Shown here piece by piece: positions 4,634-32,408 of a DNA stretch of 64,000 nucleotides. The translations under genes and the position numbers were made by a program. The DNA comes from Anaeromyxobacter diazotrophicus (GTDB taxonomy: Bacteria; Myxococcota; Myxococcia; Myxococcales; Anaeromyxobacteraceae). The notes below the pieces were generated by a model. The model did not search any database, was not told the origin of the DNA, and saw only the letters and a list, made by a program, of their open reading frames with translations. Numbering within the stretch: position 1 is the stretch's first letter; each line of letters starts with the position of its first letter. The DNA lies in assembly GCF_013340205.1 (NCBI RefSeq), contig NZ_BJTG01000002.1, positions 62,001 to 126,000 of the forward strand, given 5' to 3'.

Positions 4634-5005
4634 ATGACGGAACACCGCCAGCACCCGCGCGCTCCGATCGAGCTCGAGGTCGGCTACAAGCGCCTCAACA
4701 GCTTCTTCGCCGAGTACACGAAGAACATCTCGAAGGGCGGCACGTTCATCAAGACGAAGAAGCCGCTGCCGGCCGGCACGCGCTTCCTGTTCAAGCTGCA
4801 GGTGCCGTCCCGCCCGGAGCCGTTCGAGATCGAGGGCGAGGTGGTGCGGGCCGACGAGCCCGGCGACGAGCCCGGGATGGCCATCCGCTTCGTCTGGCAG
4901 GATCAGACGGCGCGGCTGGCGTTCGAGGCGAGCGTGGAGCGGCTCATGGTCGGCAGCCTCGGCCCGCAGGTGGCGGCCGAGCTGCTCAAGCCCGAGCGCG
5001 GCTAA
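4634..5005 (+). CDS. PilZ domain protein (TIGR02266-like)
   Basis: 123 residues, one PilZ domain. It shows RQHPR near the N-terminus (an RxxxR motif) and the second motif NISKGGTFI (D/N-x-S-x-x-G), the two stretches that bind cyclic-di-GMP in PilZ proteins. The length and the N-terminal arrangement resemble the paralog family common in myxobacteria (TIGR02266, from memory). It probably works as a small cytoplasmic c-di-GMP effector. Its stop codon overlaps the stop of the convergent DUF192 gene by 4 bases. Confidence 0.75.
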   Translation: MTEHRQHPRAPIELEVGYKRLNSFFAEYTKNISKGGTFIKTKKPLPAGTRFLFKLQVPSRPEPFEIEGEVVRADEPGDEPGMAIRFVWQDQTARLAFEASVERLMVGSLGPQVAAELLKPERG

Positions 5006-5885: not shown

Positions 5886-6061
5886 CGCGGCGAAGGGTTA
5901 GCACGCGAAACCGGCACCAGCAAGGGAGCGCCGGTGCGCGAGATGTGCGCAACGACCCCACGCCGCGGCGCGCGTCCAGTCCCTTGCCAAGGGGACCTTC
6001 CGTTGCCCGTCCCGGGAACTCGTACTAGCATGCGACCCGTGGCTTGACCGGCGGGATACCC

Positions 6062-6859
6062 TTGGATCTACCAAGACATACATACACCTTCCTCGCCCTC
6101 CTGCTCGCCCCGCTCGCAGCCCTGGGGCAGGCGCAAGAGCCGCCGGGCCTCGATCTCTCGCAGCCGCAGCCGGAGAGCGCGCGCCCCGCGGACGAGGCGG
6201 CCCGGGCGAGGAAGAGCGAACCCGTCGTGCCGCTGGCGGCCGGCGAGAGCGACGTGGCGCTGGGCGACCGCGTGAAGGCGGTGCAGCGCAAGGGCTTCAT
6301 GAAGGCGCACCGGCTGGAGCTCGGCCTCGCCTTCCCGGCCACCGTCAACGACGCCTTCTACGAGAAGGTCGGGTTCGGCGGGAAGCTCGCCTACAACTTC
6401 GAGGACAGCTTCGCGCTCGCGCTGCGCGGCGCCTACTACACCCAGCTGCGCTCGAACCACGTGCGGGAGGCCAAGGCGGCCTTCTCGAGCCAGCTGCTCC
6501 AGAGCGAGCTCAACGGGCAGCTCATGCTCGACGGCATCTGGTCGCCGGTGTACGGCAAGGTGGCCTGGCTCGGCTCCTCCATCGTCCACTTCGACGTCTA
6601 CCTCCTGGCCGGCTTCGGCGGGGTCTGGAGCGCCACCAGCTCGGCGCCGCGCAAGGAGGGGCCGCACATCGCCACCGACTTCGGCGGCGGCATCCGCTTC
6701 TACCCGAAGAGCTGGCTCGCCATCGACGGCGGGCTCATCGCGACGCTCTACCCGGACCAGCCGGTGACCCAGGCGCCGAGCACGGTCCAGAAGGTGGTGG
6801 CCGCGCAGCTCGGCGTGTCCATCTTCTGGCCCTTCACCTTCGAGTACGTCTACCCATGA
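6062..6859 (+). CDS. Outer-membrane beta-barrel protein, GltA/GltB type (first of two)
   Basis: 265 residues. I chose the TTG at 6062 because GGCGGGA sits just upstream and the product then begins with a signal peptide (HTYTFLALLLAPLAALGQA). A TTG at 6044 is the alternative. After a charged linker come alternating amphipathic strands (LELGLAFPATVNDAFYEKVGFGGKLAYNF, read in parts), ending in an aromatic terminal strand, as expected of an outer-membrane barrel. Position at the head of gltC-J, and likeness to its neighbour, identify it as GltA or GltB. In Myxococcus these form the outer-membrane part of the gliding complex. Which of the two letters applies I cannot decide. It overlaps the next gene by 4 bases. 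Confidence 0.65.
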   Translation: MDLPRHTYTFLALLLAPLAALGQAQEPPGLDLSQPQPESARPADEAARARKSEPVVPLAAGESDVALGDRVKAVQRKGFMKAHRLELGLAFPATVNDAFYEKVGFGGKLAYNFEDSFALALRGAYYTQLRSNHVREAKAAFSSQLLQSELNGQLMLDGIWSPVYGKVAWLGSSIVHFDVYLLAGFGGVWSATSSAPRKEGPHIATDFGGGIRFYPKSWLAIDGGLIATLYPDQPVTQAPSTVQKVVAAQLGVSIFWPFTFEYVYP

Positions 6860-7584
6860 CCTCGCGCGCCGCCACCGCCCTCGCGTGCGCCGTCGCGCTC
6901 GCCGCCCTCGCCCCGCGCGCGGCCCGCGCCAGCGCCGCCGACGCCTTCGAGAACAAGGTGAAGCCGGTCTCGGGGCAGCTCTACCAGAAGGGCGGGAAGC
7001 TCGAGCTGACCGCGCTGGGCGCGCTCTCGGTCGACGACGCCTTCTTCTCGAAGTACCAGGGCGGGGCGAAGCTCGCCTACCACTTCAACGACTACTTCGC
7101 GCTCGGGCTGACGGGCTCCGCCGGCACGTCCAGCCCCACCGGCTCGACCTCCATCTGCCCGCTCAACAAGACCTGCACCTCCGCCAGCGCCGCGCAGCTG
7201 TACCAGGTGCCCGGCGACATCAAGTGGATCACCGGCCTCGAGCTCGAGTTCTCGCCCATCTACGGCAAGCTCAACGTCTTCGCGGAGAAGGCGCTCCACT
7301 TCGACCTCTCGCTCCTGGCGGGCGCGGACCTCGTCAGCTACCGCGACGTGCTGAAGCCCGCGGACGCCAACAGCGGGCAGGTGCCCGGCAACGCCACCTC
7401 TCCCGGCGGCCACGTGGGCCTCGGCGCGCGCGTCTTCTTCGCGCGCTTCATGGCGCTCCGGCTCGAGATCAAGGACGTCATCTACTCGGTCCCGCACCTC
7501 TCCTCGGGCAACCTCCAGACCCAGCTCATGGCCGAGGCCGGGCTCTCCTTCTTCGTCCCGGTCGTCCATCGCGACGACACGTGA
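6856..7584 (+). CDS. Outer-membrane beta-barrel protein, GltA/GltB type (second of two)
   Basis: 242 residues starting at an ATGA overlap with the previous gene. A signal peptide (ALACAVALAALAPRAARA) is followed by barrel-like strands. The stretch LSVDDAFFSKYQGGAKLAYHFNDYFALGL closely parallels the preceding protein (in which NDAFYEKVGFGGKLAYNFEDSFALAL occupies the same place), so the pair are paralogs. SPIYGKLNVFAEKALHFDLSLLAG also matches the partner's SPVYGKVAWLG...HFDVYLLAG. In the Myxococcus Glt and Nfs systems such paired barrels sit together in the outer membrane. No pore or ligand function can be read. Confidence 0.65.
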   Translation: MTSRAATALACAVALAALAPRAARASAADAFENKVKPVSGQLYQKGGKLELTALGALSVDDAFFSKYQGGAKLAYHFNDYFALGLTGSAGTSSPTGSTSICPLNKTCTSASAAQLYQVPGDIKWITGLELEFSPIYGKLNVFAEKALHFDLSLLAGADLVSYRDVLKPADANSGQVPGNATSPGGHVGLGARVFFARFMALRLEIKDVIYSVPHLSSGNLQTQLMAEAGLSFFVPVVHRDDT

Positions 7585-7597
7585 ACGGGTGAGGCCC

Positions 7598-9388
7598 ATG
7601 ACACCGCATCTGCTCCGCTCGCTCGCCCTCGCCGCCGCCGCCGCCGTCCTCGCCGGCGCGCTGCCCGCCTCGGCGCAGCTCGGGATGGACCTCGTCCCGG
7701 ACGAGAAGAAGGCGCAGGACAAGAAGGCCCAGCCGAAGAAGGCGCCCGAGGCGAAGCGCCCGCCGGCGCCCACCACGCTCCCCGAGCTCGACATCGGCGC
7801 AGCCGGGGCGAAGAAGGGCGAGGCGCCGCGCCGGATGGCGGCGGCGAACCAGGTGTTCCAGCGCGGCGACTTCGACACCGCCGCGCTCGCCTACGACGCC
7901 ATCCTCCGCGACCCGGCGCTCTCCGAGGCGCACGACGAGGCGCGCTACCAGCTCGCGAAGAGCCTGTACCGGCTTGGGCTGTACCACTCCTCGCTGGCGC
8001 AGCTCGACCTCATCCTCCAGCGCGGCCCCCAGGGCACGAAGTACTTCCACAACGCGCTCGAGTGGCTGTTCCAGGTGGGCAAGAAGACCGTCAACGAGGA
8101 CGTCATCGTCAACGAGGTGGCCCGCTACGCGAACGGCGCGTTCCCGCCCTCCTCGCAGGACGCCTTCACGTACCTCCTCGCGCGGTACTCCTACGAGCGC
8201 GGCCACGCGCTCGACGAGGCCGGCCGCCCGGCCGAGGCGAAGAAGGCGTACGACGAGGTGCGCCGCCTCACGGTGCAGGTGCGGCCCGAGGCGGGAGCGC
8301 GGCCGCCCGCGCACCCGGCCGGCGACGAGCCGCGCCTCGACGAGGCCGACCTGTACGCGCGCGCCCGCTTCCTGGACGGGCTCGTCCAGTACGCCGAGGG
8401 GAACGGCCAGTCGGCGGTGGAGTCGTTCAAGGAGGTGGTGCGGCTCACGAACCCGAAGCGCGGCCGCGCCCCCGACCCCCGCGTCCGCGAGCAGGCGTTC
8501 CTGCAGCTCGCCCGCATCCACTACGAGCACAAGCAGAACCGCTACGCGATCTTCTACTACGACAAGATGCCGTGGGGCGGCGACAGCTGGCTCGAGGGGC
8601 TGTGGGAGGCCTCCTACGCGCACTACCGCATCGGCGACTACGAGAAGGCGCTCGGCAACCTCCTCACGCTCCAGTCGCCCTACTTCCGCGACGCCTGGTT
8701 CCCCGAGTCCTGGATCCTGAAGGCCATCATCTACTACGAGAACTGCCGCTACCCCGAGGCGCGCGCGATCCTCGACGAGTTCCACGGTGGGTACGAGGGT
8801 CTCCTGGCCGAGCTCGACCGGATCACCGGCCAGCGCAGCCAGCCCGCGGCCTTCTACGATCTGCTCGAGGACGCCGAGCGGGGGCGCGCCCAGGGCTCCG
8901 CCCAGCTGCGCCGCATCCTGAAGCTCGCCCTCACCGACCGCGACGTGAAGCGGCTCCACGACACCATCCTCGAGGTCGAGGGTGAGATGGACCGCGGGCT
9001 GGGCGGCCGCCGCGAGGCGTTCCGCGGCTCGTCGCTGGCGAAGGACCTCCGCGCCCAGCTCGAGGCCGAGCGCGGCCGGCTGGTGGACGAGGCCGGCGCC
9101 CGCGCCCGCGCCAAGCTCGAGTACGAGCGCGACGCCCTGAAGGACCTGCTGCAGCAGGCGCTCCGCATCAAGATCGAGGTCTCGCGCCAGGAGCGCCAGG
9201 CGCTCGAGGGGGCGCTGACCCGCGGCGGCCCGGTGGACGTCCTGAAGGACTACCGCTACTCCACCGCCGTCTCGGACGAGCACCTGTACTGGCCGTATGA
9301 CGGCGAGTTCTGGCGCGACGAGCTCGGCACGTACACGTACACCCTCACGAAGGGGTGCCGCGACGTCGCCGCGCGCGAGGCGCGCTAG
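7598..9388 (+). CDS. gltC: Periplasmic TPR protein GltC
   Basis: 596 residues. ATG 7598 follows GGTGAGG and gives a clean signal peptide ending ALPASA-Q; GTG 7589 would add three residues. A Lys/Ala/Pro-rich linker leads into TPR-type helices (LAYDAILRDPALSEAHDEARYQLAKSL in parts, YNRYAIFYYDKMPWGG, YRIGDYEKALGNLLTL). The C-terminal third is coiled-coil-like and highly charged (LRAQLEAERGRLVDEAGAR). The position directly after the paired barrels and before GltD matches GltC/NfsC, a periplasmic partner of the outer-membrane complex. It lies 13 bases downstream of the second barrel gene and 16 bases before gltD, in one apparent transcript. Confidence 0.65.
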   Translation: MTPHLLRSLALAAAAAVLAGALPASAQLGMDLVPDEKKAQDKKAQPKKAPEAKRPPAPTTLPELDIGAAGAKKGEAPRRMAAANQVFQRGDFDTAALAYDAILRDPALSEAHDEARYQLAKSLYRLGLYHSSLAQLDLILQRGPQGTKYFHNALEWLFQVGKKTVNEDVIVNEVARYANGAFPPSSQDAFTYLLARYSYERGHALDEAGRPAEAKKAYDEVRRLTVQVRPEAGARPPAHPAGDEPRLDEADLYARARFLDGLVQYAEGNGQSAVESFKEVVRLTNPKRGRAPDPRVREQAFLQLARIHYEHKQNRYAIFYYDKMPWGGDSWLEGLWEASYAHYRIGDYEKALGNLLTLQSPYFRDAWFPESWILKAIIYYENCRYPEARAILDEFHGGYEGLLAELDRITGQRSQPAAFYDLLEDAERGRAQGSAQLRRILKLALTDRDVKRLHDTILEVEGEMDRGLGGRREAFRGSSLAKDLRAQLEAERGRLVDEAGARARAKLEYERDALKDLLQQALRIKIEVSRQERQALEGALTRGGPVDVLKDYRYSTAVSDEHLYWPYDGEFWRDELGTYTYTLTKGCRDVAAREAR

Positions 9389-9404
9389 CTCCGGGGAAAC
9401 GCGC

Positions 9405-12400
9405 ATGGCCCGACGCATCTGCTCCCTCCTGCTCGCGTGCGCGCTGGCGATTGCACCCCGAGTGAGAGCGGACGACCCGCGTCCGCCGGCCGCCGCCGCC
9501 GCGACCGCCAAGGACGCCGGCCTCGGGAAGCGGCGCTCGCTCGCGCCCGACGCGTCGCTCGCCGGCTCCATCGAGGCGAAGGGGCGCGCCGCCGAGCCGG
9601 CCGGCCCGCGCCTCGACTTCGACACCTTCCGCTTCGCCATCGAGGGTCAGGTCTCCGGCAAGCGCCGCGAGGAGATGGCCGACCTCGAGCAGCTCATCCG
9701 GCTGGGCGGCTCGGCCCAGGAGCTCCCCGGCTGGCTGTTCCGGCTGGCCGAGCTGCACTGGGAGGAGGCGCAGTACCTCTTCTTCGAGGCCAACCGCCGC
9801 GACGACGCCCTCGGCCAGGCGAAGGGCGATCCGGCCCGGGTCGAGCGGCTGCGCGCGGAGAAGAAGGACCTCGAGGAGCGCTCGCGCGGGGAGCAGGCGC
9901 AGGCCATCGCGCGCTACCGCGAGATCGCGAAGCGCTTCCCGAACTACCCCCGCCTCGACGAGGTGGTCTTCTTCCTGGGCGAGAACCTGTGGAAGCAGAA
10001 CCGCCGCAAGGACGCGCTCGAGGCGTACAAGGTCCTCATCCAGCGCTTCCCGAAGTCGCGCTACGTGCCGGACGCCTGGATGGCCTTCGGCGAGCACTAC
10101 TTCGACACCGCGGACAAGGGGAACCGGAAGGAGACGCTGAAGAAGGCGCTCGAGACCTACCGGCGCGCCGCCGCCTACACCGAGTCGAGCGTCTACGGGT
10201 ACGCGCTCTACAAGCAGGCGTGGGTGCACTACAACCTCGGCGACTGGACCGAGGCGCTCGACCTCTTCAAGGCGGTCATCTTCTTCGGCGACCTCCCCAC
10301 TTCGACGGTGGCGCCGGACAAGAAGCTCGCGCTCGCCCGCGAGGCCCGGAAGGACTACGTCCGCACCTACAGCCACGTCGGCTCGCCCAAGGCGGCGCCG
10401 GACGACTTCGCGCGGGTGGGGGGCAAGGACGCCCGCGACATGCTCAAGTCGCTGGCGACGCTCTACTACGACGAGGGCAAGGACCGCGACGCCATCCTGG
10501 TCTACCACGGGCTCATCGTGGCCGATCCGGCCGCGCTCGACGCGCCGGGCTTCCAGGCGCGCATCGTCACCTGCGCCGGCCGCATGGGGAAGAAGGACCT
10601 GGCCGTGCAGCAGGCGGGCGTCTTCGTCGAGATGCTGCAGGCGGCCGAGAAGCGGGGCGGCGACGAGGCGGCGCGGCGGTCGCTCGAGGGAGCCCGCAAG
10701 GACGCCGAGAACACCCTCCGCACCCTGGCGGTCCAGTATCACGCGGAGTTCAAGAAGACGCGCGAGGACGCGGTGGCCTCGCTGGCCGCCGAGCTGTACC
10801 GGCTCCACCTCGGGCTCTTCCCGGACGCGCGGCAGGCGTACGAGATGCGCTTCTTCCACGCCGAGCTGCTCTACGCGCTGGAGAAGTTCCAGGCGGCCGG
10901 CGACGAGTACCTGCGGGTGGCCGACCTCGACGCCCGCCGGATGGAGAAGCCGGGCGAGGACGGCAAGCCGCAGAAGCCGGGGAAGTTCCTCCTCGACGCG
11001 CTGGAGAGCGCCGTCCAGTCCTACGACGTGGTGGCCAAGCGCGCCGAGGCCACCGAGAAGCGGCCGCAGGGGGCCGAGGCGCGCGGGCGCCTGCCCATCC
11101 CGAAGGAGAAGCAGCAGCTCGTCGACGCCTGCCAGCGCTACCTCGCGCTCGCCCCGCGCGGCGAGAAGGCGGTCGAGGTCTCCTACAAGGCGGCCAACGT
11201 CTACTACCGGTACAACGCCTTCCCCGAGGCGCAGAAGCTGTTCGCCGACATCGCCGACCACCACCCGCGCCACGACCTGGCGCGCTACGCCGCCAACCTG
11301 GCGCTCGACGCGTACAACCTCCAGGGCGACTGGCGCGGCATGAACGCCGCCGCCAAGCGCTTCTGGCAGAACGGCGAGCTCATGCGGGCGCAGCCGGCCC
11401 TGCGCGAGGACCTCTCCAAGGTCATCGAGCAGAGCGGCTTCAAGCTCATCGAGGAGCTGGAGCGGTCGGGGCGCCCCGGCGAGGCGGCCGACGCCTACCT
11501 CGCCTTCGCCCGCGACTGGCCCGCCTCGCGCCTCGCGCCGACGGCGCTGTACGACGCCTCGGTCGACCTCGCCAAGGCCGGGCGGCTGGAGCGCGCGCTG
11601 GCGGTCCGCGAGCAGCTCGTGCAGCGCTACCCGCAGGATCCGCTGGTGCCGAAGGTGGGCCTCGCGAGCGCGCAGGACCGCGAGGCGGTGGGCGACTTCG
11701 ACCGCGCCGCCGAGGGGTACGAGCGGTACTACCAGGGGTGGCGCCGCGCGGCCGGGGTGGCCGCCGCGCCCGCCAGGAAGCACGGGAAGCGCGGCGCCCA
11801 CGCGCCGCCGCCCGCGCCGGCCGGGGACGCCGCCGGCTACGCGGAGGACAAGGCGCGCGACGCGCTCTACAACGCGGGCGTGCTCCGCGAGGGGCTCGCC
11901 GAGTACGGCCGCGCGGAGGCGGACCGGACGCAGTACGTCGAGACCTGGCCCGCTTCGCCCGACGCGGCGCGCGTCTTCCTGTCCCTGGCCGACCTGGCCG
12001 GCCGCCAGGGCGCGGTCTCGAAGGAGCTGCGCGTCCTGGAGGAGTACCAGCAGCGGTACGTGAAGGACCCCACCGAGTGGCTCGCGGTGCAGGACCGGAT
12101 CGCGCGGCTCTTCCGGAAGGCGGGCAACGCCGCCGGGGAGCGGCGCGCCCACGAGCAGGCGCTCGCGTACTGGCAGCCGCGGCGGGGCCAGGTCGGCGAG
12201 CGCGGGCTGGCGGTGGTGGCCGAGGCGCAGGTCCTCGCGCTCGAGCCCGCCTTCGAGGCGTACGACCGGATCGACTTCGCCGTCCCGGCGCGCCTCTCGC
12301 CGCAGCGGCAGGTGAAGTGGCTGAAGGGCCAGGCGGAGCTGAAGAGCGCGCGCCTGCTCGAGCTGCAGAAGCGCTACACGGCGGTGGTCGAGACCAAGCA

Positions 12401-12968
12401 GGCCGAGCCGGCGGTGTGCGCCCTCTACAAGATCGGGCTCGCCTACAAGCGCTTCGCGCACGCGTTCCAGACCGCGCCGGTGCCGAAGGAGCTCCGGCAG
12501 AACAAGGCGTTCGCCGAGGAGTACCGCGCGCAGCTGAGGCAGCTCGCCGAGGCGCCCGAGAAGAAGGCGGTCGAGGCGCTCGAGTACGCCATGACGAAGT
12601 CGCGCGAGCTGGGCGTCTCGAACGCCTGCTCGCGCGCGGCCACCGAGATCCTGACCCACTACAAGCCCGATCTGTACGGGCCGCCGCTGGAGCAGGTCCC
12701 CCCGCTCGCCGCGCCGCGGGCCCCGGGGCGCGCGAGCGGCCACGGGCTGCTCACGGCGCTGTACCTGCCGCCCGGGCCCGAGGCCGCGGCGCCGGTCGAG
12801 CCGGGCCCGGCGCTCCCGCCGCTCGGCGCGCGCGCGGAGCCGGCGGCGACGCCGGCGCGCGACCCGGACCTCCAGCTCGACGAGCCCGAGGAGGTGCGCC
12901 CCGGCGCCGTCGCGCCGCGCGACCCCTCGCCGCCGCCGCCGATCAAGGACGAGGATCTCCTGCCATGA
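9405..12968 (+). CDS. gltD: Large periplasmic TPR protein GltD (AgmU)
   Basis: 1,187 residues. ATG 9405 follows GGGGAA and begins a signal peptide (ICSLLLACALAIAPRVRA). Most of the chain is TPR-like helical hairpins, for example YREIAKRFPNYPRLDEVVFFLGE, DALEAYKVLIQRFPKSRY and AYKQAWVHYNLGDWTEAL, read in parts. The C-terminal 90 residues are Pro/Ala-rich and end PPPPIKDEDLLP. In Myxococcus, GltD/AgmU is periplasmic and links inner- and outer-membrane parts of the gliding machine. The stop overlaps the gltE start by 4 bases (ATGA). Confidence 0.7.
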   Translation: MARRICSLLLACALAIAPRVRADDPRPPAAAAATAKDAGLGKRRSLAPDASLAGSIEAKGRAAEPAGPRLDFDTFRFAIEGQVSGKRREEMADLEQLIRLGGSAQELPGWLFRLAELHWEEAQYLFFEANRRDDALGQAKGDPARVERLRAEKKDLEERSRGEQAQAIARYREIAKRFPNYPRLDEVVFFLGENLWKQNRRKDALEAYKVLIQRFPKSRYVPDAWMAFGEHYFDTADKGNRKETLKKALETYRRAAAYTESSVYGYALYKQAWVHYNLGDWTEALDLFKAVIFFGDLPTSTVAPDKKLALAREARKDYVRTYSHVGSPKAAPDDFARVGGKDARDMLKSLATLYYDEGKDRDAILVYHGLIVADPAALDAPGFQARIVTCAGRMGKKDLAVQQAGVFVEMLQAAEKRGGDEAARRSLEGARKDAENTLRTLAVQYHAEFKKTREDAVASLAAELYRLHLGLFPDARQAYEMRFFHAELLYALEKFQAAGDEYLRVADLDARRMEKPGEDGKPQKPGKFLLDALESAVQSYDVVAKRAEATEKRPQGAEARGRLPIPKEKQQLVDACQRYLALAPRGEKAVEVSYKAANVYYRYNAFPEAQKLFADIADHHPRHDLARYAANLALDAYNLQGDWRGMNAAAKRFWQNGELMRAQPALREDLSKVIEQSGFKLIEELERSGRPGEAADAYLAFARDWPASRLAPTALYDASVDLAKAGRLERALAVREQLVQRYPQDPLVPKVGLASAQDREAVGDFDRAAEGYERYYQGWRRAAGVAAAPARKHGKRGAHAPPPAPAGDAAGYAEDKARDALYNAGVLREGLAEYGRAEADRTQYVETWPASPDAARVFLSLADLAGRQGAVSKELRVLEEYQQRYVKDPTEWLAVQDRIARLFRKAGNAAGERRAHEQALAYWQPRRGQVGERGLAVVAEAQVLALEPAFEAYDRIDFAVPARLSPQRQVKWLKGQAELKSARLLELQKRYTAVVETKQAEPAVCALYKIGLAYKRFAHAFQTAPVPKELRQNKAFAEEYRAQLRQLAEAPEKKAVEALEYAMTKSRELGVSNACSRAATEILTHYKPDLYGPPLEQVPPLAAPRAPGRASGHGLLTALYLPPGPEAAAPVEPGPALPPLGARAEPAATPARDPDLQLDEPEEVRPGAVAPRDPSPPPPIKDEDLLP

Positions 12969-14419
12969 GGCGCGCGCTCTCCATGACCCTCCGCCTCGCG
13001 CTGCCGCTCGCGGGCGCGCTCCTCGCCTGCGCCGGCGGCGGCGGCAGCGCGCCGCGCGCCGGCGGCCGCCCCGACGCGACCTCGACCTCGACCTCGAACG
13101 GGAGAGCGACCTCGGGCTCGGGCTCGGGCTCGACGGGCGCCAGGGCCGGCAGCTCGACCGCGACCGCGAGCCGTCCGCCCGCCCCGCCGCGCCGGGAGCT
13201 CTCGCCGCGCGGCCAGCGCCTCTTCGACGAGGCGCTGGCGGCGGCGGAGGAGCAGAAGCGGCTCAAGGTCCCGACCGACTGGGAGACCCTGGAGCGGCGC
13301 TGGCGCGCGGTGACCGAGGCCGAGCCGGTCCCGGAGGCCTGGTTCAACCTCGGCGTGGCGCTGGAACACCGCGGCCGCCCCGGCGAGGCGCGCGCGGCCT
13401 ACCAGCGCGCGCTCGAGCTCGAGCCACGCCTCGCGCCGGCGGCGGCGAACCTGCTCCTGCTCGACGAGCCCAAGGACCCGGCCCTGGCGGCCCAGCGGTG
13501 GAGCGAGCTCGCGCGCCGCCACCCGGACGACGCCGTCTCGCGGGCGCGGCTGGCCGCGCTCTACGAGGCGGCCGGCCAGCGCGACGAGGCGTGGAAGCTC
13601 GCCCGCGAGGCGCTCCTGCGCGATCCGCGGGCGGTGGGCGCCTACAAGGTCATGATGCGGGTGGCGCTCGGCCGCGGGAAGCCCGACCTGGCGCACCTGC
13701 TCGCCGTGAAGGCGCGCAAGCTCGACCCCGCCGACGCGGAGATCGTCTCCTTCGTGGGGGACGTGCTCGCGGCCGAGAAGGACCGCCCCGGGGCCGTGGC
13801 GCAGTGGCGGAAGGCGATCGCGCTCGACGAAGGGTACGTGCCCGCCCGCTACGCGCTGCTCGCCGACGCCTTCGGGAAGCAGCACTGGGAGGGCGTGGCC
13901 GAGCACGCGCGCGCCATCCTGCGCTCCGACCCCGACCCGCGCGTGCAGCTCGCCCTGGGGGTGGCGCTCCGCTACCTCGGCAAGCCCGACCAGGCGCTCG
14001 CGGCCTACGACCAGGCCGAGAAGCTCGGCGCCGGCAAGCTGCCCGAGGTGCACCTCGCGCGCGGCGTGGCGCTCATGAAGTCGAAGGAGCAGTGCGAGCC
14101 GGCACTCGCCGAGCTGCGGCGCTACGTGGTCGCGGCCGGCCCGGCCGCCGCGAGCGAGGGCCCGGCCATGCGCCTCACCCGCGAGTGCGAGCAGATCGTG
14201 CTCGCCGGCCGGCAGGCGGAGGAGGCGGCGCGCGAGCTGAAGGCGGAGGCCGACCGCGAGGCCGCCCGCAAGGCCGCCCAGCCGGCGAAGGAGCCGCGCC
14301 CGGCCGGGGCTCGAGGCCCCGAGGCGACCCCCGCCGCGAAGCCGGTACCCCCGGCGAGCGGGGCAGGGACCGTGCCCTCGCCCGGTCCTGCGTCCACCCC
14401 GACGGCGGATGGGCGATGA
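12965..14419 (+). CDS. gltE: TPR lipoprotein GltE (AglT)
   Basis: 484 residues. It begins with a lipoprotein signal (LPLAGALLACAGGGG, lipobox LLAC) followed by a Ser/Thr/Gly low-complexity linker (about residues 35-70, encoded by short CTCGAC/CTCGGG repeats). The central TPRs include WFNLGVALEHRGRPGEARAAYQRALELEP (read in parts), ARLAALYEAAGQRDEAWKLA and LGVALRYLGKPDQALAAYDQ. The last 80 residues are Ala/Glu/Pro-rich. Lipid anchoring plus TPRs and the location after gltD identify GltE/AglT, an outer-membrane TPR lipoprotein in Myxococcus. It is translationally coupled to gltD. A 101-base gap to gltF follows, in which I see no convincing promoter. Confidence 0.7.
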   Translation: MRRALSMTLRLALPLAGALLACAGGGGSAPRAGGRPDATSTSTSNGRATSGSGSGSTGARAGSSTATASRPPAPPRRELSPRGQRLFDEALAAAEEQKRLKVPTDWETLERRWRAVTEAEPVPEAWFNLGVALEHRGRPGEARAAYQRALELEPRLAPAAANLLLLDEPKDPALAAQRWSELARRHPDDAVSRARLAALYEAAGQRDEAWKLAREALLRDPRAVGAYKVMMRVALGRGKPDLAHLLAVKARKLDPADAEIVSFVGDVLAAEKDRPGAVAQWRKAIALDEGYVPARYALLADAFGKQHWEGVAEHARAILRSDPDPRVQLALGVALRYLGKPDQALAAYDQAEKLGAGKLPEVHLARGVALMKSKEQCEPALAELRRYVVAAGPAAASEGPAMRLTRECEQIVLAGRQAEEAARELKAEADREAARKAAQPAKEPRPAGARGPEATPAAKPVPPASGAGTVPSPGPASTPTADGR

Positions 14420-14520
14420 ACCCCGACAAGGTGGCCGAGGTGAGCACGGGTGTTGCTATCCCCATGGAAAACCCGGTGCTACGCTCCCTGTCACGGAGAA
14501 GAGGGACAAGAGGGACACCG

Positions 14521-14775
14521 ATGCGAAAGCGGCTTCTTCTGACGGTCCTCGCCTTTCCCCTGTTCGCCTTCGGACAGGAGAAGCAACCGCCTGAACCCCG
14601 GGTGGAGTACGAAAAGAAGACGGTCATCAACTTCGACGACGACACGATCCAGGGTGACCTGACGCGCCCCGATGGAGAGTATGTCGAGGCGCGCAAGCGG
14701 GTGAACCACTCGAACTTGATCAAGATCCGCGAAGAGTGGCGCGACAAGGTGAAGCAGTCCGCCGCCGACCTCTGA
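14521..14775 (+). CDS. gltF: Small periplasmic protein, GltF-like
   Basis: 84 residues. ATG 14521 follows GAGGGAC and gives a short signal peptide (LLLTVLAFPLFAFG-Q). The mature 65 residues are charged and contain NFDDDTIQGDLTRPDGEY and HSNLIKIREEW, a pattern I associate with a small protein conserved in deltaproteobacterial glt/nfs-type clusters. In Myxococcus the gene at this position is gltF (possibly also called cglF). No enzymatic motif is visible. It lies 12 bases before gltG. The symbol rests mainly on gene order. Confidence 0.5.
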   Translation: MRKRLLLTVLAFPLFAFGQEKQPPEPRVEYEKKTVINFDDDTIQGDLTRPDGEYVEARKRVNHSNLIKIREEWRDKVKQSAADL

Positions 14776-14787
14776 GCGAGCGCTCCG

Positions 14788-16812
14788 ATGCCTACTCCCC
14801 TCACCCTCGAGGTCTACCGCGGCGACGAGCTGGTCCGGACCGAGCGCTTCACGCGCGAGATCATCAAGATCGGCCGGCTCGCCTCGGCGCACCTGTGCCT
14901 CGAGGACGAGCGGATCTCGCGCATCCACTCGGTGATCGAGGTGGGGGCCGAGGGCGTCTCCATCATCGACATGGGGAGCGCCGAGGGGACGTTCGTCAAC
15001 GGCAAGCGGGTGAGCAAGGGCTCGCTGAAGCACGGCGACGAGATCAAGCTCGGCGGCCTGCGCATCGTGGTGGCGGGGGACGGCAGCCCCGCCGCGGGGC
15101 CGAAGAACCGCGCGCTCGAGGTCCCCGCCCAGGCGGCCGCCCGGGCGCTCCCCGCCGCGCACGCCAACGGCCAGCACGCCAACGGGCAGCACGCCAACGG
15201 GCACCCGCACAACGGACACGCGCCGAACGGCCACGCGGTGGCCCCGCTCCAGACCTCGGCCGGCGCCGCGCTCGCGCTCCGCGCCGCCGAGCCGGCGCCC
15301 GCGCAGGCCGCGCAGGCCGCGGTTGCGCCCGCGCCCGCCCGGCCGGCGCGCCCGGCGCTGGCGCTCGCGCGCCCCATCGACGAGGAGCCGGTGGAGGAGG
15401 GCGCCCCCGACCTCGGCGTGGAGCTCCGCGTCCTCTGGGGCGACGCGCTCCTCGACGCCGGCACCTTCGTCGCCCCGAAGCAGCCGGTCCTGGTGGGCGA
15501 GGGGCCGCGCTGTCACTTCCGCCTCTCCGGGCCCGACCTCCCCACCTCCGACTTCCCCATCCTCCGCCACGAGGGCGGCGAGTACCGCTTCCTCTTCGCG
15601 CGCGGCATGCGCGGCGGCGTGGAGGACGGCGGCAAGCTCCGCACCTTCGGCGAGCTGGTGAAGTCCCGCGCCGCCTCGCAGGACGAGGCGGTCGAGGGCG
15701 CGTGGTCGGTGCCGGTGCCGCGCGCCGGGGCCGCTCGCGCCGAGCTGGGCAGCGGGCTGTGCGTCGAGGCGCGCTTCCGCCGGCCGCCCAAGGCCGCGGT
15801 GGTGCCCTGGTGGGAGCGGCTCGACTACCGCTACCTCAACCTGCTCCTCGTGCTGCTCTTCCTGCAGGGCGGGTTCGTGGTGGCGGCGAAGACCACCACC
15901 CGCGACATGGACCTCGTGCAGGACGACCTCGCCAAGGGCCAGCAGCGGATGGCGAAGTTCGTGATGAAGGCGCCCGAGCAGCAGCCCAAGGTGAACCCCT
16001 ACCTCGAGAAGCTGAAGAGCGATCTCCGCAAGGAGCAGCCGGGGGAGATGGCCGAGCGCCACAAGGGCGACGAGGGCCAGATGGGCAAGAAGGACGCGCC
16101 CAAGACGAACGGCCGCTCCGCGCCGAAGGCCATCGACCCGAACGCGAAGGAGCTGGTGAAGAACTCGGGGCTGCTGGCCGCGCTCGGCAAGGGCCGCGGC
16201 ACCGGCGGGCTCTCCACCGTCTTCGGTCAGGGCGGCCTGGGCGGCGACCTCAAGGGCGCCATCGGCAACATGTACGGCCCGGTGGTGGGCGACAGCCGCG
16301 GCGTCGGCGGGCTCGGCCTCAAGGGCACCGGGACCGGCGGCGGCGGCGCGGGCGAGACCATCGGCATCGGCGCGGTGGGCACGAAGGGGCGCGGCGGCGG
16401 GCTCGGCGGCTACGGCTCCGGCGTGGGCGGCCTCGGCGCCAAGCGCGACCGCGACGTCGCCATCGCCACCGGCGAGACCAAGGTCCTCGGCGCCATCGAC
16501 CCGGAGCTCATCCGCAAGGTCATCCGCGACCACGCCGACCAGGTCCGGTACTGCTACGAGCAGCAGCTCACGCTCAACCCGAAGCTCGGCGGCAAGGTGG
16601 CCATCAAGTGGCAGATCAACGCCGACGGCCGCGCCTCGGCCACCCTCCTCGACCCGAGCGTCCCCATCGACTCGGACGGCCTGCGCACGGTGGGCGAGTG
16701 CATCATGAGCCGCATCCGGACGTGGGAGTTCCCCAAGCCCAAGGGCGGTGGCATGGCGATCGTCACCTATCCGTGGATCCTGCGCAGCTCCGGCTCGGGC
16801 TCGGCAGGATAG
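14788..16812 (+). CDS. gltG: GltG (PglI): FHA domain, single membrane span and TonB-like C-terminus
   Basis: 674 residues, inner-membrane protein. Residues about 5-95 are an FHA phosphothreonine-binding domain (IIKIGRLASAHLCLED, RISRIHSVI, GTFVNGKRV). A His/Asn/Gly repeat follows at about 124-150 (HANGQHANGQHANGH). One membrane span lies at about 350-368 (YLNLLLVLLFLQGGFVVAA). The periplasmic part has a Gly-rich stretch and then an AgmX/PglI-type TonB-like C-terminal domain with two conserved cysteines (VRYCYEQQLTLNPKLGG, GECIMSRIRTWEFP). In Myxococcus, GltG spans the inner membrane and reaches towards periplasmic partners. Its cytoplasmic FHA domain suggests control by Ser/Thr kinases. It ends one base before gltH starts. 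Confidence 0.75.
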   Translation: MPTPLTLEVYRGDELVRTERFTREIIKIGRLASAHLCLEDERISRIHSVIEVGAEGVSIIDMGSAEGTFVNGKRVSKGSLKHGDEIKLGGLRIVVAGDGSPAAGPKNRALEVPAQAAARALPAAHANGQHANGQHANGHPHNGHAPNGHAVAPLQTSAGAALALRAAEPAPAQAAQAAVAPAPARPARPALALARPIDEEPVEEGAPDLGVELRVLWGDALLDAGTFVAPKQPVLVGEGPRCHFRLSGPDLPTSDFPILRHEGGEYRFLFARGMRGGVEDGGKLRTFGELVKSRAASQDEAVEGAWSVPVPRAGAARAELGSGLCVEARFRRPPKAAVVPWWERLDYRYLNLLLVLLFLQGGFVVAAKTTTRDMDLVQDDLAKGQQRMAKFVMKAPEQQPKVNPYLEKLKSDLRKEQPGEMAERHKGDEGQMGKKDAPKTNGRSAPKAIDPNAKELVKNSGLLAALGKGRGTGGLSTVFGQGGLGGDLKGAIGNMYGPVVGDSRGVGGLGLKGTGTGGGGAGETIGIGAVGTKGRGGGLGGYGSGVGGLGAKRDRDVAIATGETKVLGAIDPELIRKVIRDHADQVRYCYEQQLTLNPKLGGKVAIKWQINADGRASATLLDPSVPIDSDGLRTVGECIMSRIRTWEFPKPKGGGMAIVTYPWILRSSGSGSAG

Positions 16813-16813
16813 G

Positions 16814-17461
16814 ATGGCACGCGTGACCCGCATCCACTCCAGACCCCTCCTCGCCGCGCTCCTCGCGATCTCCCTCCTCCCGGCCCTCGCGGCGGCGCAG
16901 GAGGCGGCGCCGCCCATGCCGGAGGATCCGCGCGCGCCCCGCTTCAAGGAGGTGGAGCGCGGGTTCTTCACCGGCTTCGAGGTGGGCTACCTCTCGCTCT
17001 TCAAGACCCCCACCGCCGACCCGGTGAAGTTCCCGTTCGCCGGCGCCGGCGGCGGCACCGCCAGCGGGATGCTGGTCGGCGCCACGCTCGGCTACGACGT
17101 GTCGAGCCGCGTGGCGGTGTCGCTCTTCGCGCTGGGCGGCAACGCGCGCGCCAGCGTCTCGTACGGAGCGTTCAGCGTGCTCGCGGCCGGGCTCGACCTG
17201 CGGGTGGCGCTCCTCGGCGCGAGCGACAAGTACGGGGTGGAGCGGCTGCACGTGTACCTGCACGGGCGCGGCGGCGGCCTCCTCACCACGCCCGAGGGGC
17301 TGCTCGGGCACACCGACGTCTACCTCGCCGGCGGACCGGGGGTGGAGTACTTCACGCACCTGCGCCACTTCGCGGTCGGCCTCGCCGCCGACGTCGCCTA
17401 CCTGACGAAGGCCAAGGCGGCCGGGCTCGCCATCACCCCGACCGTCCGTTACACCTTCTAG
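16814..17461 (+). CDS. gltH: Outer-membrane beta-barrel protein GltH
   Basis: 215 residues from ATG 16814, which follows AGGATAG and starts just after the gltG stop. A signal peptide (RPLLAALLAISLLPALAAAQ) leads into barrel-type strands: GFFTGFEVGYLSLF, GMLVGATLGYDVSSRVAVSLFALGG, VDYL-like segments and a terminal TPTVRYTF ending in Phe, the usual C-terminal signal of outer-membrane barrels. Its place between gltG and gltI corresponds to gltH in Myxococcus (possibly also called cglE). It is distinct from the GltA/B pair in sequence. A gap of 57 bases to gltI follows. Confidence 0.6.
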   Translation: MARVTRIHSRPLLAALLAISLLPALAAAQEAAPPMPEDPRAPRFKEVERGFFTGFEVGYLSLFKTPTADPVKFPFAGAGGGTASGMLVGATLGYDVSSRVAVSLFALGGNARASVSYGAFSVLAAGLDLRVALLGASDKYGVERLHVYLHGRGGGLLTTPEGLLGHTDVYLAGGPGVEYFTHLRHFAVGLAADVAYLTKAKAAGLAITPTVRYTF

Positions 17462-17518
17462 GCGGCTGCGGCTTCCTGCACCTTCCAGCGGCCTTCCCCC
17501 GATGAAGGGACAGGGTCT

Positions 17519-23500: not shown

Positions 23501-26500
23501 GCCCCGGACGACGCGGAGGCGCTCGCCGGCGTGGCCCGGGCCCACCGCGCCACCGGCGCGGCCGAGCCGCTCGCGGCCACGCTGCGGCGGCTGCTCGCGG
23601 TCACCGAGGACGCGGCGGCGCGCCCGGCGCTGCTGGCGGAGCTGGCCGCGCTGCAGGAGGAGCGGCTCTCCGACCCGGCCGGCGCCATCGCCACCCTGCG
23701 GCGGCTGCTCGAGGCGGAGCCGGACCGGCGCGACGCGCTGGTCCGCCTCGATCGCCTGTGCGTCGCGGCCGAGAAGTGGGTCGAGCTGGCGGACGTGCTC
23801 GCCCGCGAGGTGGCGCTCGCCGACGCCTCCGGGGACGCGGCCGCGGCGCGCGGCTTCCGGCAGCGGCTGGGCGAGCTCAAGGAGACGCGGCTGCTCGACC
23901 GCGAGGGCGCGCTCGCGCTCTACGAGCAGATCCTGGCCGGCCACCCCGACGACCCGGCCGCGCTGGCGCGGCTCGAGGCGATCCTGCAGAAGGACCCGGC
24001 CCAGGCGCGCGCGGCGGCCGCCCTGGAGCGCGCCTACGCCGCCTCGGGCGCCTGGGCCCGCTACGCGGCGGTGCTGGAGGTGCGCGCCGGCGAGCGGCCG
24101 GACCCGGTGGAGCGCAAGGCGCTCTTCCTCGAGCTGGCGGAGGTGCAGGAGAAGCGGCTCGGGAACGGCGAGCTGGCGTTCCTCGCGCTCTGCCGTGCCT
24201 TCCGCGACGACCCGGCCGACCCGGCGCTGCGCGCCGAGCTGACCCGGCTGGCGCAGCAGGGCGACCACGCCGAGGAGCTGGCCGGCCTGTACGAGGACGA
24301 GTTCGGGAAGCTGCCGCAGGCCGCCGCCGCCGAGGTGGCGCTGGCCCTGGGCGGCCTGTACGAGGGCAAGCTCCAGGCGCCCGACGCCGCCGTCCGGTGG
24401 TTCGAGGAGGCGCGCCGCCAGGACCCGGCCGGCGCGCCCAAGGCGCTGGCCGCGCTCGACCGGCTCTACCGCGCGCGCAACCAGCCGGAGCCGCTGGCGG
24501 GCGTGCTGGAGGCCGAGGCCGCGCTGGCCGGCGCTGACGAGCGCGCGGCGTTCCTGTTCCGCCTCGGCCAGCTCGCCGAGGAGGAGCTGCGCGACCCGGC
24601 GCGCGCCGCGCGCGCCTACGAGGCGCTGCTCGCCGCCGAGCCGCGGCAGCCGGCCGCGCTGCGGGCGCTGGAGCGGCTCTACGAGGCGGCGGGGCAGACC
24701 GAGGCGCTGGCCGAGAACCTGGCCGCGCAGCGCGAGCTGGGGGCGGACGGCGCGGTGCGCCTCACGCTCACCGCGCGGCTGGCGGCCTTGCGGCAGCAGC
24801 TCGGGCGCGACGAGGAGGCGCTCGCGCTGTGGCGCGAGGCGCTCGGCCAGGACCCGCGGCACGAGCCGGCGCTGGCGGCGCTGGAGGGGCTGTACGAGAA
24901 GCTGGAGCGCTGGCCCGAGCTGGCCGAGCTCCTGCGGGCGCGGCTCGCCGTCACCGCCGACCGCCGCGAGGCGGCCCGCATGCAGGAGAAGCTGGGCGCG
25001 CTGTCGGCGGGCCGGCTGGGCGACGGGGCGGGCGCGGTGCGCGCCTACCTGGCGGTGCTCGACGCCGACCCGCGCCACCGGCGGGCGCTGGAGGCGCTGC
25101 GGGATCTCTACGCGGCGCAGGACGACCTGGAGGGCCTCGCCTCGGTGTACCGGCGCCTGGTGCCGCTGCAGGAGGGGGCGGGGGGCGTGAAGGCCACCCG
25201 GCTCGCGCTGGCGGACGTGCTCCTGCGCGCGGGCAAGAAGGGCGAGGCGGCGGAGCAGGGCCGGCGCGCGCTCGAGCTCGAGCCGCACGGCGACGAGGAG
25301 CTGTCGCGCCTGGCGGCGATCTTCGAGGCGGCCGGCGCGCCGCAGGATCGCGTCAAGGCGGTGGAGGCGCGGGCGGGGCTGCTCGCCGCGGCGGGGCGCG
25401 CCGACGAGGCGGTCCTCGCCTGGCAGGCGGCGGCCGAGGGCTGGGAGAAGCCGCTGGGCCGCCCGGAGGCGGCGGCGGCGGCGCTGGAGAAGGTGCTGGA
25501 GCTCGCCCCGGATCGCCGGGACGCGTGGCTGAAGCTGAAGGAGCTGTACGCCCGCGCCGGGAACTGGCGCGCCTACGTGCGCGTGTCGGATCTCTTCACC
25601 ACCCACCTCGCCGACCGCGCCGAGCGGCGCGCCGTGCTGAAGGAGCTGGGCGAGATCCACGAGAAGCGGCTCGGGCAGAAGGAGATGGCGTTCATCACCT
25701 GGTGCCGCGCCTTCGGCGACGACCCGGCCGACGCCGACGCGGTCGCCGCCATCCAGCGCCTGGCCGCCGAGACCGGCGCCTTCGACGAGCTGGCGGCGGT
25801 CTACGAGCAGGTGGCGGACGAGGCGAAGGGCCTCGCCCGGGCGAAGCTCCTGCTCCAGCTCGGCCGCGTGAAGGACCGCCGGCTCGACGACGCCGACGGC
25901 GCCGAGGCGGCCTTCCGGCGCGCGCTGGAGGTCGACCCCGCCAGCCCGGAGGCGCTCGACGCGCTCACCGAGCTCTTCACCCGGCGCGGCCGGGTGAAGG
26001 ACCTCGTCATCGCGCTCGAGCAGAAGCTCGAGGCGGCGGCGGGCCTGGAGGAGAAGAAGGCGACGCTGCTCGAGATGGCCCGCATCTACGACGGGCAGCT
26101 CCACGACGCGGGCGAGGCGATCACGGCGCTGAAGCGCGTGCTCGAGCTCGACGGCGCCGACGCGGCCGCGCTGGAGGCGCTCGCGACCCTGTACCGGCGC
26201 GAGGCGCGCTGGGGCGATCTGGCCGGCATCCTGGCGCGGGCGCGCGACCTCGCCCCCGACGAGGAGACCCGCGTCGCCTACCAGCTCCAGATCGCCGGGC
26301 TGCACGAGAACGAGATCGCGGACGACGAGGCGGCGGTGGAGGCCTACCGGGCGGTGCTCGGCCAGGACGACCGCAACCGCGCCGCGCTCGACGGCCTGGA
26401 GCGCCTCTACACCAAGCTCGACCGCTACGCGGAGCTGAACCGCGTCTACGAGCGGCAGGCGGCCCTCACCGGCGACGCCCGGGAGAAGGTGCGCATCCTC

Positions 26501-29431: not shown

Positions 29432-29482
29432 CGCCACCGGGGGGCGGGCGGAGGGGGGCGCCGTGCGCGCCCCGATCCTTCC

Positions 29483-29511
29483 TTGACCCCCCGGTGTTAC
29501 AACCCTACGAT
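29483..29511 (+). promoter_or_regulatory. Sigma70-type promoter for gltJ
   Basis: A TTGACC -35 box (29483-29488) and a TACGAT -10 box (29506-29511) are separated by exactly 17 bases in the 117-base gap between gltI and gltJ. The -10 box is 37 bases upstream of the gltJ ATG. This suggests that gltJ and the following genes can be transcribed independently of the 23-kb upstream run. Confidence 0.6.
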
Positions 29512-29548
29512 TGATTGGATTTTCGGCCATTTACGCCGACGAGCGCCT

Positions 29549-31282
29549 ATGAAATTCGCCTGCGACAGCTGCGGCTCGCAGTACATGATCTCGGACGAGA
29601 AGGTCGGTCCGAACGGGGTCAAGGTCCGCTGCAAGAAGTGCGGGAACGTCGTCGCGGTGAAGCGGCCGCCGGCGTCGGCGCCGGAGGTGTCGCCGGCGCC
29701 CAGCCCCGAGCGGGCGGCGGGGGCGCCCGAGGGCGGGCTCGAGAGCGAGCTCGGACACGCGTTCGACAGCGCCTTCGGCACCGGCGGCCCCGCCGGACCG
29801 GCGGCTTCGCCGCCGGCCGACCTGGGCGACGACTGGTATGTCGCGGTGGACGACAACCAGGTGGGGCCGCTCCCGGCCGAGGGCGTGAAGACGCGCTGGG
29901 AATCGGGCGAGGTCGGCCCCGACACGCTGGCCTGGCGCCCCGGCATGGCCGACTGGGTCCCCATCTCCACCATCGCCGAGATGGCGCAGTACCTCGCGCC
30001 GGTCCCGCGCGGCGGGAAGCCGGCCGCGCGGCCGGTGGCGAGCGCCGGCCTGGCGCCGGCCGCGGCCGCGCGCGAGGAGCGCCCCGCCCCCGCCCCGGCC
30101 GCGCCCTCCGCGGCGCCGGCCGCTCCGGCCGCGCACGCGAACGGCCACGTCCAGGGGGCGCAGGGGGCCTGGAAGCCGAGCGCGGCGAGCGCGCTGGCGG
30201 CGCTCGCCAGCGAGGAGATGGCCTCGCTCGAGAAGCCCGAGCGCAAGCCGGCCGAGTCGACGGTGAAGAGCGGCTCGCTCGTCGACAAGATGGAGCTGCC
30301 CGACGGGGGCGTCGATCCGACGAACCTCATCCCCCTGACGATCAAGGGGCTCGAGCAGACCACCGACACGAAGCTCGAGCGCCCCCGCAGCACCGCCGCC
30401 GACCGCACCGAGATCCGCCAGATCAAGAAGTCGGCGGTCCGGAGCGTGGTGGCGGTGGGCGTCGCCATGCTGGTGCTCTTCGGCGTCGCGGTGGCGGCCA
30501 TCGCCTGGTACCTGAAGCCGCACGAGGTGGCGGTGGTGCGCGCCCCCGCCGCCGCCCCGCCGGTGGCCGCCGCGCCCGCGCCCACGCCTCCTCCCGCGGT
30601 GGCCCCGGCGCCGGCCCCGGTCGCGCCGGCGCCGGCGCCGACCCCTCCGCCGGTGGCGCAGGCCGCGCCCCCGGCCGCGGCGCCCGCCCCGGCGGCCCCG
30701 GCGCGCGAGCCGGCCCGGGCCGAGGCCCCTCCCGCCCGCGAGCCCGCGCGCGCCGCCGCGCCGAGCCGCCGCGCGCCGGCGGAGCCCCCGGCCCGCCCGG
30801 CGCGCAGGCCGGCGGCCCCGCAGCGGGTCGCGTCCTCCGAGCCGGCGCCGCGGCCGGCGCCCGAGCCGCCAGCGCGGCGCAAGCCGGCCGGCGATCCGCT
30901 GCTCGACGTGGGCGGCGACGAGGAGCTCGAGAAGGAGCTGGGCGGCAAGCCCACCAAGCGGAGCGTCTATGTCCCGCCGGCGCTCGGCGCCGATCTGCCG
31001 GACAGCGTCTCGCAGTCGCAGATCCAGGAGGCGGTGGCCGGGCAGAAGTCGGCGCTCCTGCGCTGCATCGAGCAGCAGCGGGCGGCCGACCCCAACGCCC
31101 GCGGCACGCTGCGCCTGCGCTGGCTCATCACCGGCGACGGCGGCGTGCGCGAGGTGCGCGTCCTCTCGGACGAGTTCGCCCGCCAGCCGGTCGCGCCCTG
31201 CATCAGCGGGGTGGTGAAGGGCATCCGCTTCCCGCGCTCGCGCACCACGGGGCAGGAGGTCGTCTTCCCGTTCAAGTTCTGA
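29549..31282 (+). CDS. gltJ: GltJ (AgmX): zinc ribbon, GYF domain, membrane span and TonB-like C-terminus
   Basis: 577 residues. Residues 1-36 are a zinc ribbon (CDSC at 5-8, CKKC at 28-31). Residues about 95-145 form a GYF_2 domain (DDWYVAVDDNQVGPLP, GPDTLAWRPGMADWVPI). An Ala/Pro-rich linker includes AHANGH near 195. A single membrane span is at about 297-322 (SVVAVGVAMLVLFGVAVAAI). A long Pro/Ala-rich periplasmic spacer leads to a TonB-like C-terminal domain with two cysteines (LLRCIEQQRAADPNARG, VAPCISGVVKGIRFP). In Myxococcus the cytoplasmic zinc-ribbon and GYF domains of GltJ take part in MglA-dependent assembly and disassembly of focal adhesions. It has its own promoter. Confidence 0.8.
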   Translation: MKFACDSCGSQYMISDEKVGPNGVKVRCKKCGNVVAVKRPPASAPEVSPAPSPERAAGAPEGGLESELGHAFDSAFGTGGPAGPAASPPADLGDDWYVAVDDNQVGPLPAEGVKTRWESGEVGPDTLAWRPGMADWVPISTIAEMAQYLAPVPRGGKPAARPVASAGLAPAAAAREERPAPAPAAPSAAPAAPAAHANGHVQGAQGAWKPSAASALAALASEEMASLEKPERKPAESTVKSGSLVDKMELPDGGVDPTNLIPLTIKGLEQTTDTKLERPRSTAADRTEIRQIKKSAVRSVVAVGVAMLVLFGVAVAAIAWYLKPHEVAVVRAPAAAPPVAAAPAPTPPPAVAPAPAPVAPAPAPTPPPVAQAAPPAAAPAPAAPAREPARAEAPPAREPARAAAPSRRAPAEPPARPARRPAAPQRVASSEPAPRPAPEPPARRKPAGDPLLDVGGDEELEKELGGKPTKRSVYVPPALGADLPDSVSQSQIQEAVAGQKSALLRCIEQQRAADPNARGTLRLRWLITGDGGVREVRVLSDEFARQPVAPCISGVVKGIRFPRSRTTGQEVVFPFKF

Positions 31283-31301: not shown

Positions 31302-32408
31302 GTGTCGGTCGAGAGCGAGCGCGCGGGGATGGGCGACGCCTACCGGCCGGTAGCGGAGATGACGCTGGGTGAGCTGGAGGCGATCCGGCTCATCCTGCGC
31401 GGCTCGTCGGTGGTGGACTGGCGGCGGCTCCACTTCGCGGACGCCGCCGAGGTGGACCGGTTCCTCGCCCTCAACCTCTTCGACGCCCACGACCCGCGCG
31501 ACGAGGGGCGGCTCCGCTCCATCCTGGCGCAGGCCGTCGAGTACCTCCGCAAGGCGTTCGGCTACCGGGTCGCGGACGCGGTGGCGCAGCCGGCCGACGT
31601 CCGCGAGCTCTTCCTGCTCGCCAGCGGCGCGCTCGAGCCGCACCGGTACCGCCGCATCGCCTGCGTGGTGCTGAAGTGCATGCACGTGGTCCACCACCTG
31701 GAGGCGCGGGAGCTCCTCTTCCGCACCCCCATCCGCGAGGCGGACCTGGCCGAGCGCGTCGACCGCCGGGTCATGGCGGAGGCGCGGCGGATGCAGCAGC
31801 TCGGGCTCCCGGTGGTGGAGTTCGTCGGCAACGTGAAGGCGCGCAACTCGCTCATCACGAAGCTCATCGCCAAGCGCGAGACGGTGGCGGCGCAGATCTT
31901 CGACCGCGTGCGGTACCGGGTGGTGACCGAGCGGCAGGACCAGATCCCGCCCATCCTCCACCACCTCGCGACCACGCTCTTCCCGTTCAACTACGTGGTG
32001 CCCGGGCAGTCCGAGAACACGCTGGTGAGCTTCCGCGACATCGTGACGCGCCACCCGCGCGGCGCGGAGCTCGTGCCGGAGCTGCAGGCGCCGCTCGGCC
32101 TGGAGGCGCGGGAGCGGCGCCCGCGCAACGTCTTCAGCGGCAAGCGGTACCGGGTGCTCAACTTCGTGGTGGACCTGCCGGTGCGCGTGGACGAGCTCTT
32201 GCCCCCCGACGGGCCGCTGGCCGAGGACCTGGGCCGGGTGGTGTTCTCGCAGGTCGAGTTCCAGATGGTCGACCAGGCCACCGCCCGCCAGAACGAGGTG
32301 GGCGACGCGAGCCACGAGCGTTACAAGCGCCGGCAGAGCAAGATCGTGCTGCGGCGCCTGTCGCGCGGGCTGGTGGTGCCCAAGCGGCGGCCCCGCGGAG
32401 AGGGGTGA
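31302..32408 (+). CDS. TIGR04552-like protein with possible RelA/SpoT nucleotidyltransferase-like core
   Basis: 368 residues from GTG 31302 behind a G-rich stretch; ATG 31329 is an alternative. There is no signal or membrane span. I relate it to the deltaproteobacterial family TIGR04552 (from memory; no known function). The middle region reads VEFVGNVKARNSLITKLIAK, then FDRVRYRVVTERQDQIPPIL and FNYVVPGQSENTL. The order of a basic substrate-binding stretch with Ser and Lys, then D-x-x-R-x-R-V-V, recalls the RelA/SpoT (p)ppGpp synthetase core. This is a resemblance, not proof. It starts 19 bases after gltJ and 3 bases before the next small gene, so it is probably cotranscribed with gltJ. Confidence 0.5.
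   Translation: MSVESERAGMGDAYRPVAEMTLGELEAIRLILRGSSVVDWRRLHFADAAEVDRFLALNLFDAHDPRDEGRLRSILAQAVEYLRKAFGYRVADAVAQPADVRELFLLASGALEPHRYRRIACVVLKCMHVVHHLEARELLFRTPIREADLAERVDRRVMAEARRMQQLGLPVVEFVGNVKARNSLITKLIAKRETVAAQIFDRVRYRVVTERQDQIPPILHHLATTLFPFNYVVPGQSENTLVSFRDIVTRHPRGAELVPELQAPLGLEARERRPRNVFSGKRYRVLNFVVDLPVRVDELLPPDGPLAEDLGRVVFSQVEFQMVDQATARQNEVGDASHERYKRRQSKIVLRRLSRGLVVPKRRPRGEG

Follow-up and report, generated by a model that had tools for sequence, protein, structure and literature searches.

The 64,000-nucleotide stretch of DNA analysed here (the window; G000:C2:62001-126000, from a genome of 4.83 Mb in 17 contigs) carries a complete glt gene set at a single locus. We interpret it, with a probability of roughly 75%, as an orthologous Glt gliding transducer that would be powered by AglRQS and steered by MglA/MglB, the place of the adhesin CglB probably being taken by a VWA lipoprotein. 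The gene content, gene order, orthology, conserved domains and motor residue described below were observed directly, and the Glt interpretation is supported by earlier literature (PMC3169522, PMC3858216, PMC4488436, PMC2330069). The cluster itself is largely known already, since its grouping was published in 2011 and surface motility of strain 2CP-C in 2008; the failure to find CglB in the family and a candidate stand-in for it are the new lead.

Ten intact open reading frames occupy positions 6044-31282 of the forward strand in the order gltB-gltA-gltC-gltD-gltE-gltF-gltG-gltH-gltI-gltJ, with intergenic gaps of -4 to +117 bases (13 bases from gltC to gltD and 57 bases from gltH to gltI; Table 1). 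The NCBIfam gliding models for GltC, GltE, GltF, GltG and GltH all scored above their curated cut-offs. GltJ scored below the NF033761 cut-off, but its zinc ribbon, GYF and C-terminal domains agree with its position, and it is 35-39% identical to M. xanthus GltJ. The first-pass annotation had described two GltA/B-type barrels followed by GltC to GltJ, ordered on one strand with short gaps; this layout was upheld, and comparison with the M. xanthus proteins corrected the barrel order to GltB first and GltA second. The start of gltF is most likely at 14521. The cluster, described as colinear and complete at 6062-31282, proved even more complete than claimed, because GltK/CglC lies just outside that interval on the reverse strand.

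Table 1. Genes of the glt locus and its conserved downstream neighbour, in window coordinates.
Feature	Position	Strand	Evidence
GltK/CglC outer-membrane lipoprotein	5490-5885	-	NF033754 gliding_CglC 84.4 bits, cut-off 60; divergent from gltB
GltB outer-membrane barrel	6044-6859	+	TIGR04565 104.9 bits; 42% to M. xanthus GltB, 27% to GltA; exact start uncertain
GltA outer-membrane barrel	6856-7584	+	TIGR04565 123.1 bits; top-scoring match M. xanthus GltA
GltC periplasmic TPR protein	7589-9388	+	NF033756 779 bits, cut-off 450
GltD periplasmic TPR protein	9402-12968	+	BLAST and profile homology; Glt branch in tree
GltE TPR lipoprotein	12965-14419	+	NF033758 260 bits, cut-off 225
GltF/CglF	14521-14775	+	NF033764 116.5 bits, cut-off 90
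GltG: FHA domain, membrane segment, TonB-like C-terminus	14788-16812	+	NF033760 760 bits, cut-off 650
GltH/CglE outer-membrane protein	16814-17461	+	NF033755 123.6 bits, cut-off 70
GltI TPR protein, 3970 residues	17519-29431	+	Size, place and C-terminal profile matching M. xanthus GltI
GltJ: zinc ribbon, GYF domain, membrane segment, TonB-like C-terminus	29549-31282	+	NF033761 397 bits, cut-off 450; PF13717, PF14237
TIGR04552 protein, conserved cluster neighbour	31302-32408	+	369.6 bits, cut-off 125

GltK, one of the genes that the first-pass annotation had proposed to look for, was spotted as a small cysteine-rich lipoprotein by its position and a weak BLAST match and was confirmed by the curated CglC model. 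M. xanthus gltK is transcribed away from gltBAC (PMC4488436), and the window's gene holds the identical divergent position, directly adjoining gltB. With GltK confirmed upstream of gltB, the full GltA-K set is therefore present at one locus. A gltK counterpart occupies the equivalent divergent position in the Anaeromyxobacteraceae loci read, and a more diverged one, again divergent, was found in a genome of another family (G047). On the side of gltK facing the start of the window, positions 2274-5493 encode a protein of 783 residues, one with a PilZ domain (TIGR02266) and one of the DUF192 family. In A. oryzae all three kinds of neighbour sit next to gltK, and in the complete genome G047 there are counterparts of the first two. 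At the other end of the cluster, the TIGR04552 protein lies directly downstream of gltJ here; Myxococcaceae also have it on that side of gltJ, at a distance of about 2-3 kb. It had no relative of solved structure at E-values up to 1 and no Pfam match, and it may represent an unrecognised Glt partner.

We then read gene order with profiles at 80 named loci and built a concatenated GltD+E+G tree of 54 rows together with a mixture-model tree of 32 rows. A phylogeny of Glt against Nfs had been proposed beforehand as a check on the identity of these proteins, and the 54-row tree placed the window in the Glt branch, adjoining the Myxococcaceae Glt clade, with M. xanthus Nfs outside. The mixture-model tree agreed: in it, the Glt proteins of Anaeromyxobacteraceae and Myxococcaceae formed one clade with 100/100 support. 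Membership of the Nfs spore-coat system is thus not indicated, the set lying outside the Nfs branch and including GltI, GltJ and GltK, which are absent from Nfs (PMC3858216). In GltD+E+G, one record titled Comamonas sp. KCTC 72670 (L114) fell with Myxococcus, and its label is probably wrong.

The two M. xanthus Glt parts, gltBAC and gltD-J, were published as separate clusters (PMC3169522), and unrelated genes come next at the gltBAC locus, in agreement with the split that the first-pass annotation had described for Myxococcus, alongside a paralogous nfs operon for spore coat export. Scoring a locus as split when no A, B or C gene appeared in the visible stretch (>2.5 kb) upstream of gltD, we found that the linked and split states of gltC and gltD require exactly one change on the tree, and the split rows are all Myxococcaceae kin. 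Because all outgroups have gltC and gltD linked, the M. xanthus nfs set is undivided too (PMC3858216) and the split needs only this one change, the undivided arrangement (gltK divergent from gltB-A-C-D-E-F-G-H-I-J) is reconstructed as ancestral, the split having arisen once, on the Myxococcaceae stem. The suggestion that a single ordered cluster reflects an ancestral or undivided state is upheld by this reconstruction. The arrangement at two loci in M. xanthus is thus derived, and missing parts can be sought in other genomes by gene order; GltK belongs to the cluster locus as well.

The host belongs to the family Anaeromyxobacteraceae, its nearest named relative being Anaeromyxobacter sp. RBG_16_69_14. 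Other loci of the family keep the order barrel-barrel-C-D-E-F-G, with H where the contig is long enough, and most run into GltI; since family members with a readable locus share the same order, it is not due to chance. Unrelated genes lie between gltH and gltI in three genomes (G007, G034 and G018, which we take to be 2CP-1, 2CP-C and Fw109-5, respectively); in G007 and G034 they span about 8 kb, and no such insert was found in the window or in A. oryzae. An apparent loss of gltG in G018 (5,277,990 bp), seen as a low GltG score, was rejected as an artefact of 5,000 masked bases over part of gltG-gltH (L252). Every Glt-bearing family member tested had AglR together with GltC. GltC, GltG and AglR were all missing from three genomes, which belong to a single genus; MglB was kept in all three, and mglBA in both of those that were read.

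Next, we searched the genome for motor and switch genes. Among six MotA/TolQ/ExbB loci, one is an R-Q-S triplet (about C5:166165-167919) that is 69/43/43% identical to M. xanthus AglRQS (M1), as against 36/26/27% to the second M. xanthus triplet (M2); the lengths of the reference triplet (245/162/194) match published AglRQS. The host's AglQ keeps D28, the channel residue on which proton conduction depends in M. xanthus (PMC3858216). The remaining loci are of Tol, flagellar MotAB and Exb types, and neither a second AglRQS-type motor, nor an Nfs set, nor a second GltC was seen in the genome. The genes mglB and mglA are adjacent on C3, with 75% and 85% identity to their M. xanthus counterparts, so that the motor and switch genes for which a genome search had been suggested are both present. 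In locus L050 (2241-12399), aglRQS adjoins membrane pyrophosphatase-like and chemotaxis-like genes, and 2CP-C has been reported to carry aglR and aglS in the dif cluster (PMC2330069). M. xanthus, A. oryzae and G016 have a second, paralogous GltC/D/E-like set immediately next to mglBA (L212, L214, L245); the host does not. Retention of the motor and GTPase genes, with all eleven glt frames intact, makes it very improbable that the cluster is a non-functional relic, even though loss of Glt did occur in one sister genus.

The role of the locus had been regarded as open should the host be an Anaeromyxobacter, a genus not known as a classical glider. It is less open than that, given that A. dehalogenans 2CP-C was reported in 2008 to show surface motility with gliding-type flares, along with a list of A-motility genes (PMC2330069); a 2026 review repeats the view that A. 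dehalogenans glides (PMC13104615). This motility is no proof of gliding, because the studied strain also has pilus genes (PMC2330069), and the same motor-driven transducer might instead serve a cell that does not glide, carrying polymer or coat material around its surface in the manner of Agl-Nfs on spores of M. xanthus, Nfs demonstrating that the architecture is able to serve polymer transport (PMC3858216). We consider this alternative unlikely, as the set falls with Glt rather than Nfs in the tree, carries the three proteins that Nfs lacks, and has a GltJ that retains both its zinc ribbon and its GYF domain.

In the preferred interpretation of a gliding transducer, the mechanism is carried over from M. 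xanthus, in which the AglR-GltG contact, CglC-aided barrel insertion and the action of MglA on GltJ have been described (PMC3169522, PMC4488436, PMC12288465). By analogy, a single AglRQS proton motor, encoded elsewhere in the genome, would power the Glt transducer. AglR would push GltG, and the resulting force would travel by way of GltC, GltD, GltE and GltF to GltA, GltB and GltH, the outer-membrane barrels whose insertion GltK may assist. MglA and MglB would steer the machine, with GltJ, through its zinc ribbon and GYF domain, as the predicted MglA target. Propulsion of the cell is presumed, as is the part of a VWA lipoprotein with a CglB-type N-terminal tether in the place of CglB.

The CglB profile gave no match of weight in Anaeromyxobacteraceae and none in the host genome; it did match in families f2, f4, f6, f7 and f9, all of which also scored highly for GltG. 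A complete focal adhesion of the M. xanthus type, with its CglB adhesin, was thus not recovered. CglD was rejected as a replacement, with no match above the cut-off in Anaeromyxobacteraceae. A VWA lipoprotein gene beside guaBA and unlinked to glt (in the host, G000:C12:41839-43602) came to light through weak CglB matches of 48 residues in some Anaeromyxobacter genomes. This gene was present in Glt-bearing family members, was found weakly in G060 and was absent from the three Glt-less genomes. In the host, two VWA lipoprotein genes stand in tandem beside guaBA (L290:4663-7603), the second without a CglB-like N-terminus.

From the lipid cysteine onwards, the mature VWA lipoprotein begins CQDYNFNPV and CglB begins CQTYDFEPV; the former thus has a lipobox followed by CQxYxFxPV, and it carries a MIDAS DxSxS motif (DDSGSM in the alignment). 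The back-translated CQxYxFxPV motif, which was chosen after inspecting both proteins, gave 96 matches in 116 genomes, comprising 83 at CglB (on the gene or within 200 bases of it) and 13 in Anaeromyxobacteraceae, with none elsewhere. The latter occurred once per genome, at the VWA lipoprotein where that gene was located by search, and none occurred in the three relatives without Glt; a reversed-motif control gave 1 match. Profile comparison aligned CglB and the VWA lipoprotein over 47 columns, from tether to MIDAS (probability 96%, E = 1.2e-9). The homology is therefore not full-length, the curated CglB profile did not recognise the protein, and it is not CglB by membership because the rest of it matches another VWA lipoprotein family (E = 8e-50).

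These data suggest that the VWA lipoprotein may be a replacement adhesin that docks as CglB does. It stays a lead, because the motif was picked post hoc and the gene was lost along with Glt just once, in one genus. We give about even odds to the broader proposal that in Anaeromyxobacteraceae the Glt machine is of ancestral type but its adhesin has been exchanged, a VWA lipoprotein of another family having kept or acquired the CglB N-terminal tether. Somewhat short of even is the possibility that the protein is an unrelated adhesin, its N-terminus resembling CglB by convergence or common sorting, and that gliding relies on another adhesin or none. The unlinked gene would fit this possibility, as would a body that groups with the other VWA lipoprotein family and also with CglD and MIDAS adhesins; the restriction of CQxYxFxPV to CglB and Anaeromyxobacteraceae among the 116 genomes and the missing gene in the Glt-less genus argue against it. 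If the exchanged-adhesin proposal is true, the nine residues from the lipid cysteine may serve the Glt outer-membrane platform as a docking signal for recognising its adhesin. The VWA lipoprotein is a candidate means by which bacteria that have every Glt part, yet no CglB, might grip a surface.

Compared with known systems, the window shares with M. xanthus Agl-Glt the eleven Glt proteins, their order within both parts, a divergent gltK, and orthologues of AglRQS and MglA/B. The two differ in that gltC runs directly into gltD here rather than lying at another locus, and in that M. xanthus has CglB, whose N-terminal signature is found here on a different VWA lipoprotein. Bdellovibrio-type and other outgroup clusters also have barrel-C-D-E-F-G linked, but are more distant; no GltK was seen in the Bdellovibrio loci, where the stretch read ended before GltJ. 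M. xanthus Nfs has the same undivided A/B-C-D-E-F-G-H order and uses the same motor, but represents a paralogous branch without I, J and K. Also close are the four Anaeromyxobacter glt clusters of Luciano et al. (2011), in which both Glt parts are likewise grouped on the chromosome and for which gliding was predicted (PMC3169522); gltH and gltI are separated in A. dehalogenans 2CP-1 and 2CP-C and interrupted in Fw109-5, whereas they are nearly contiguous in the window.
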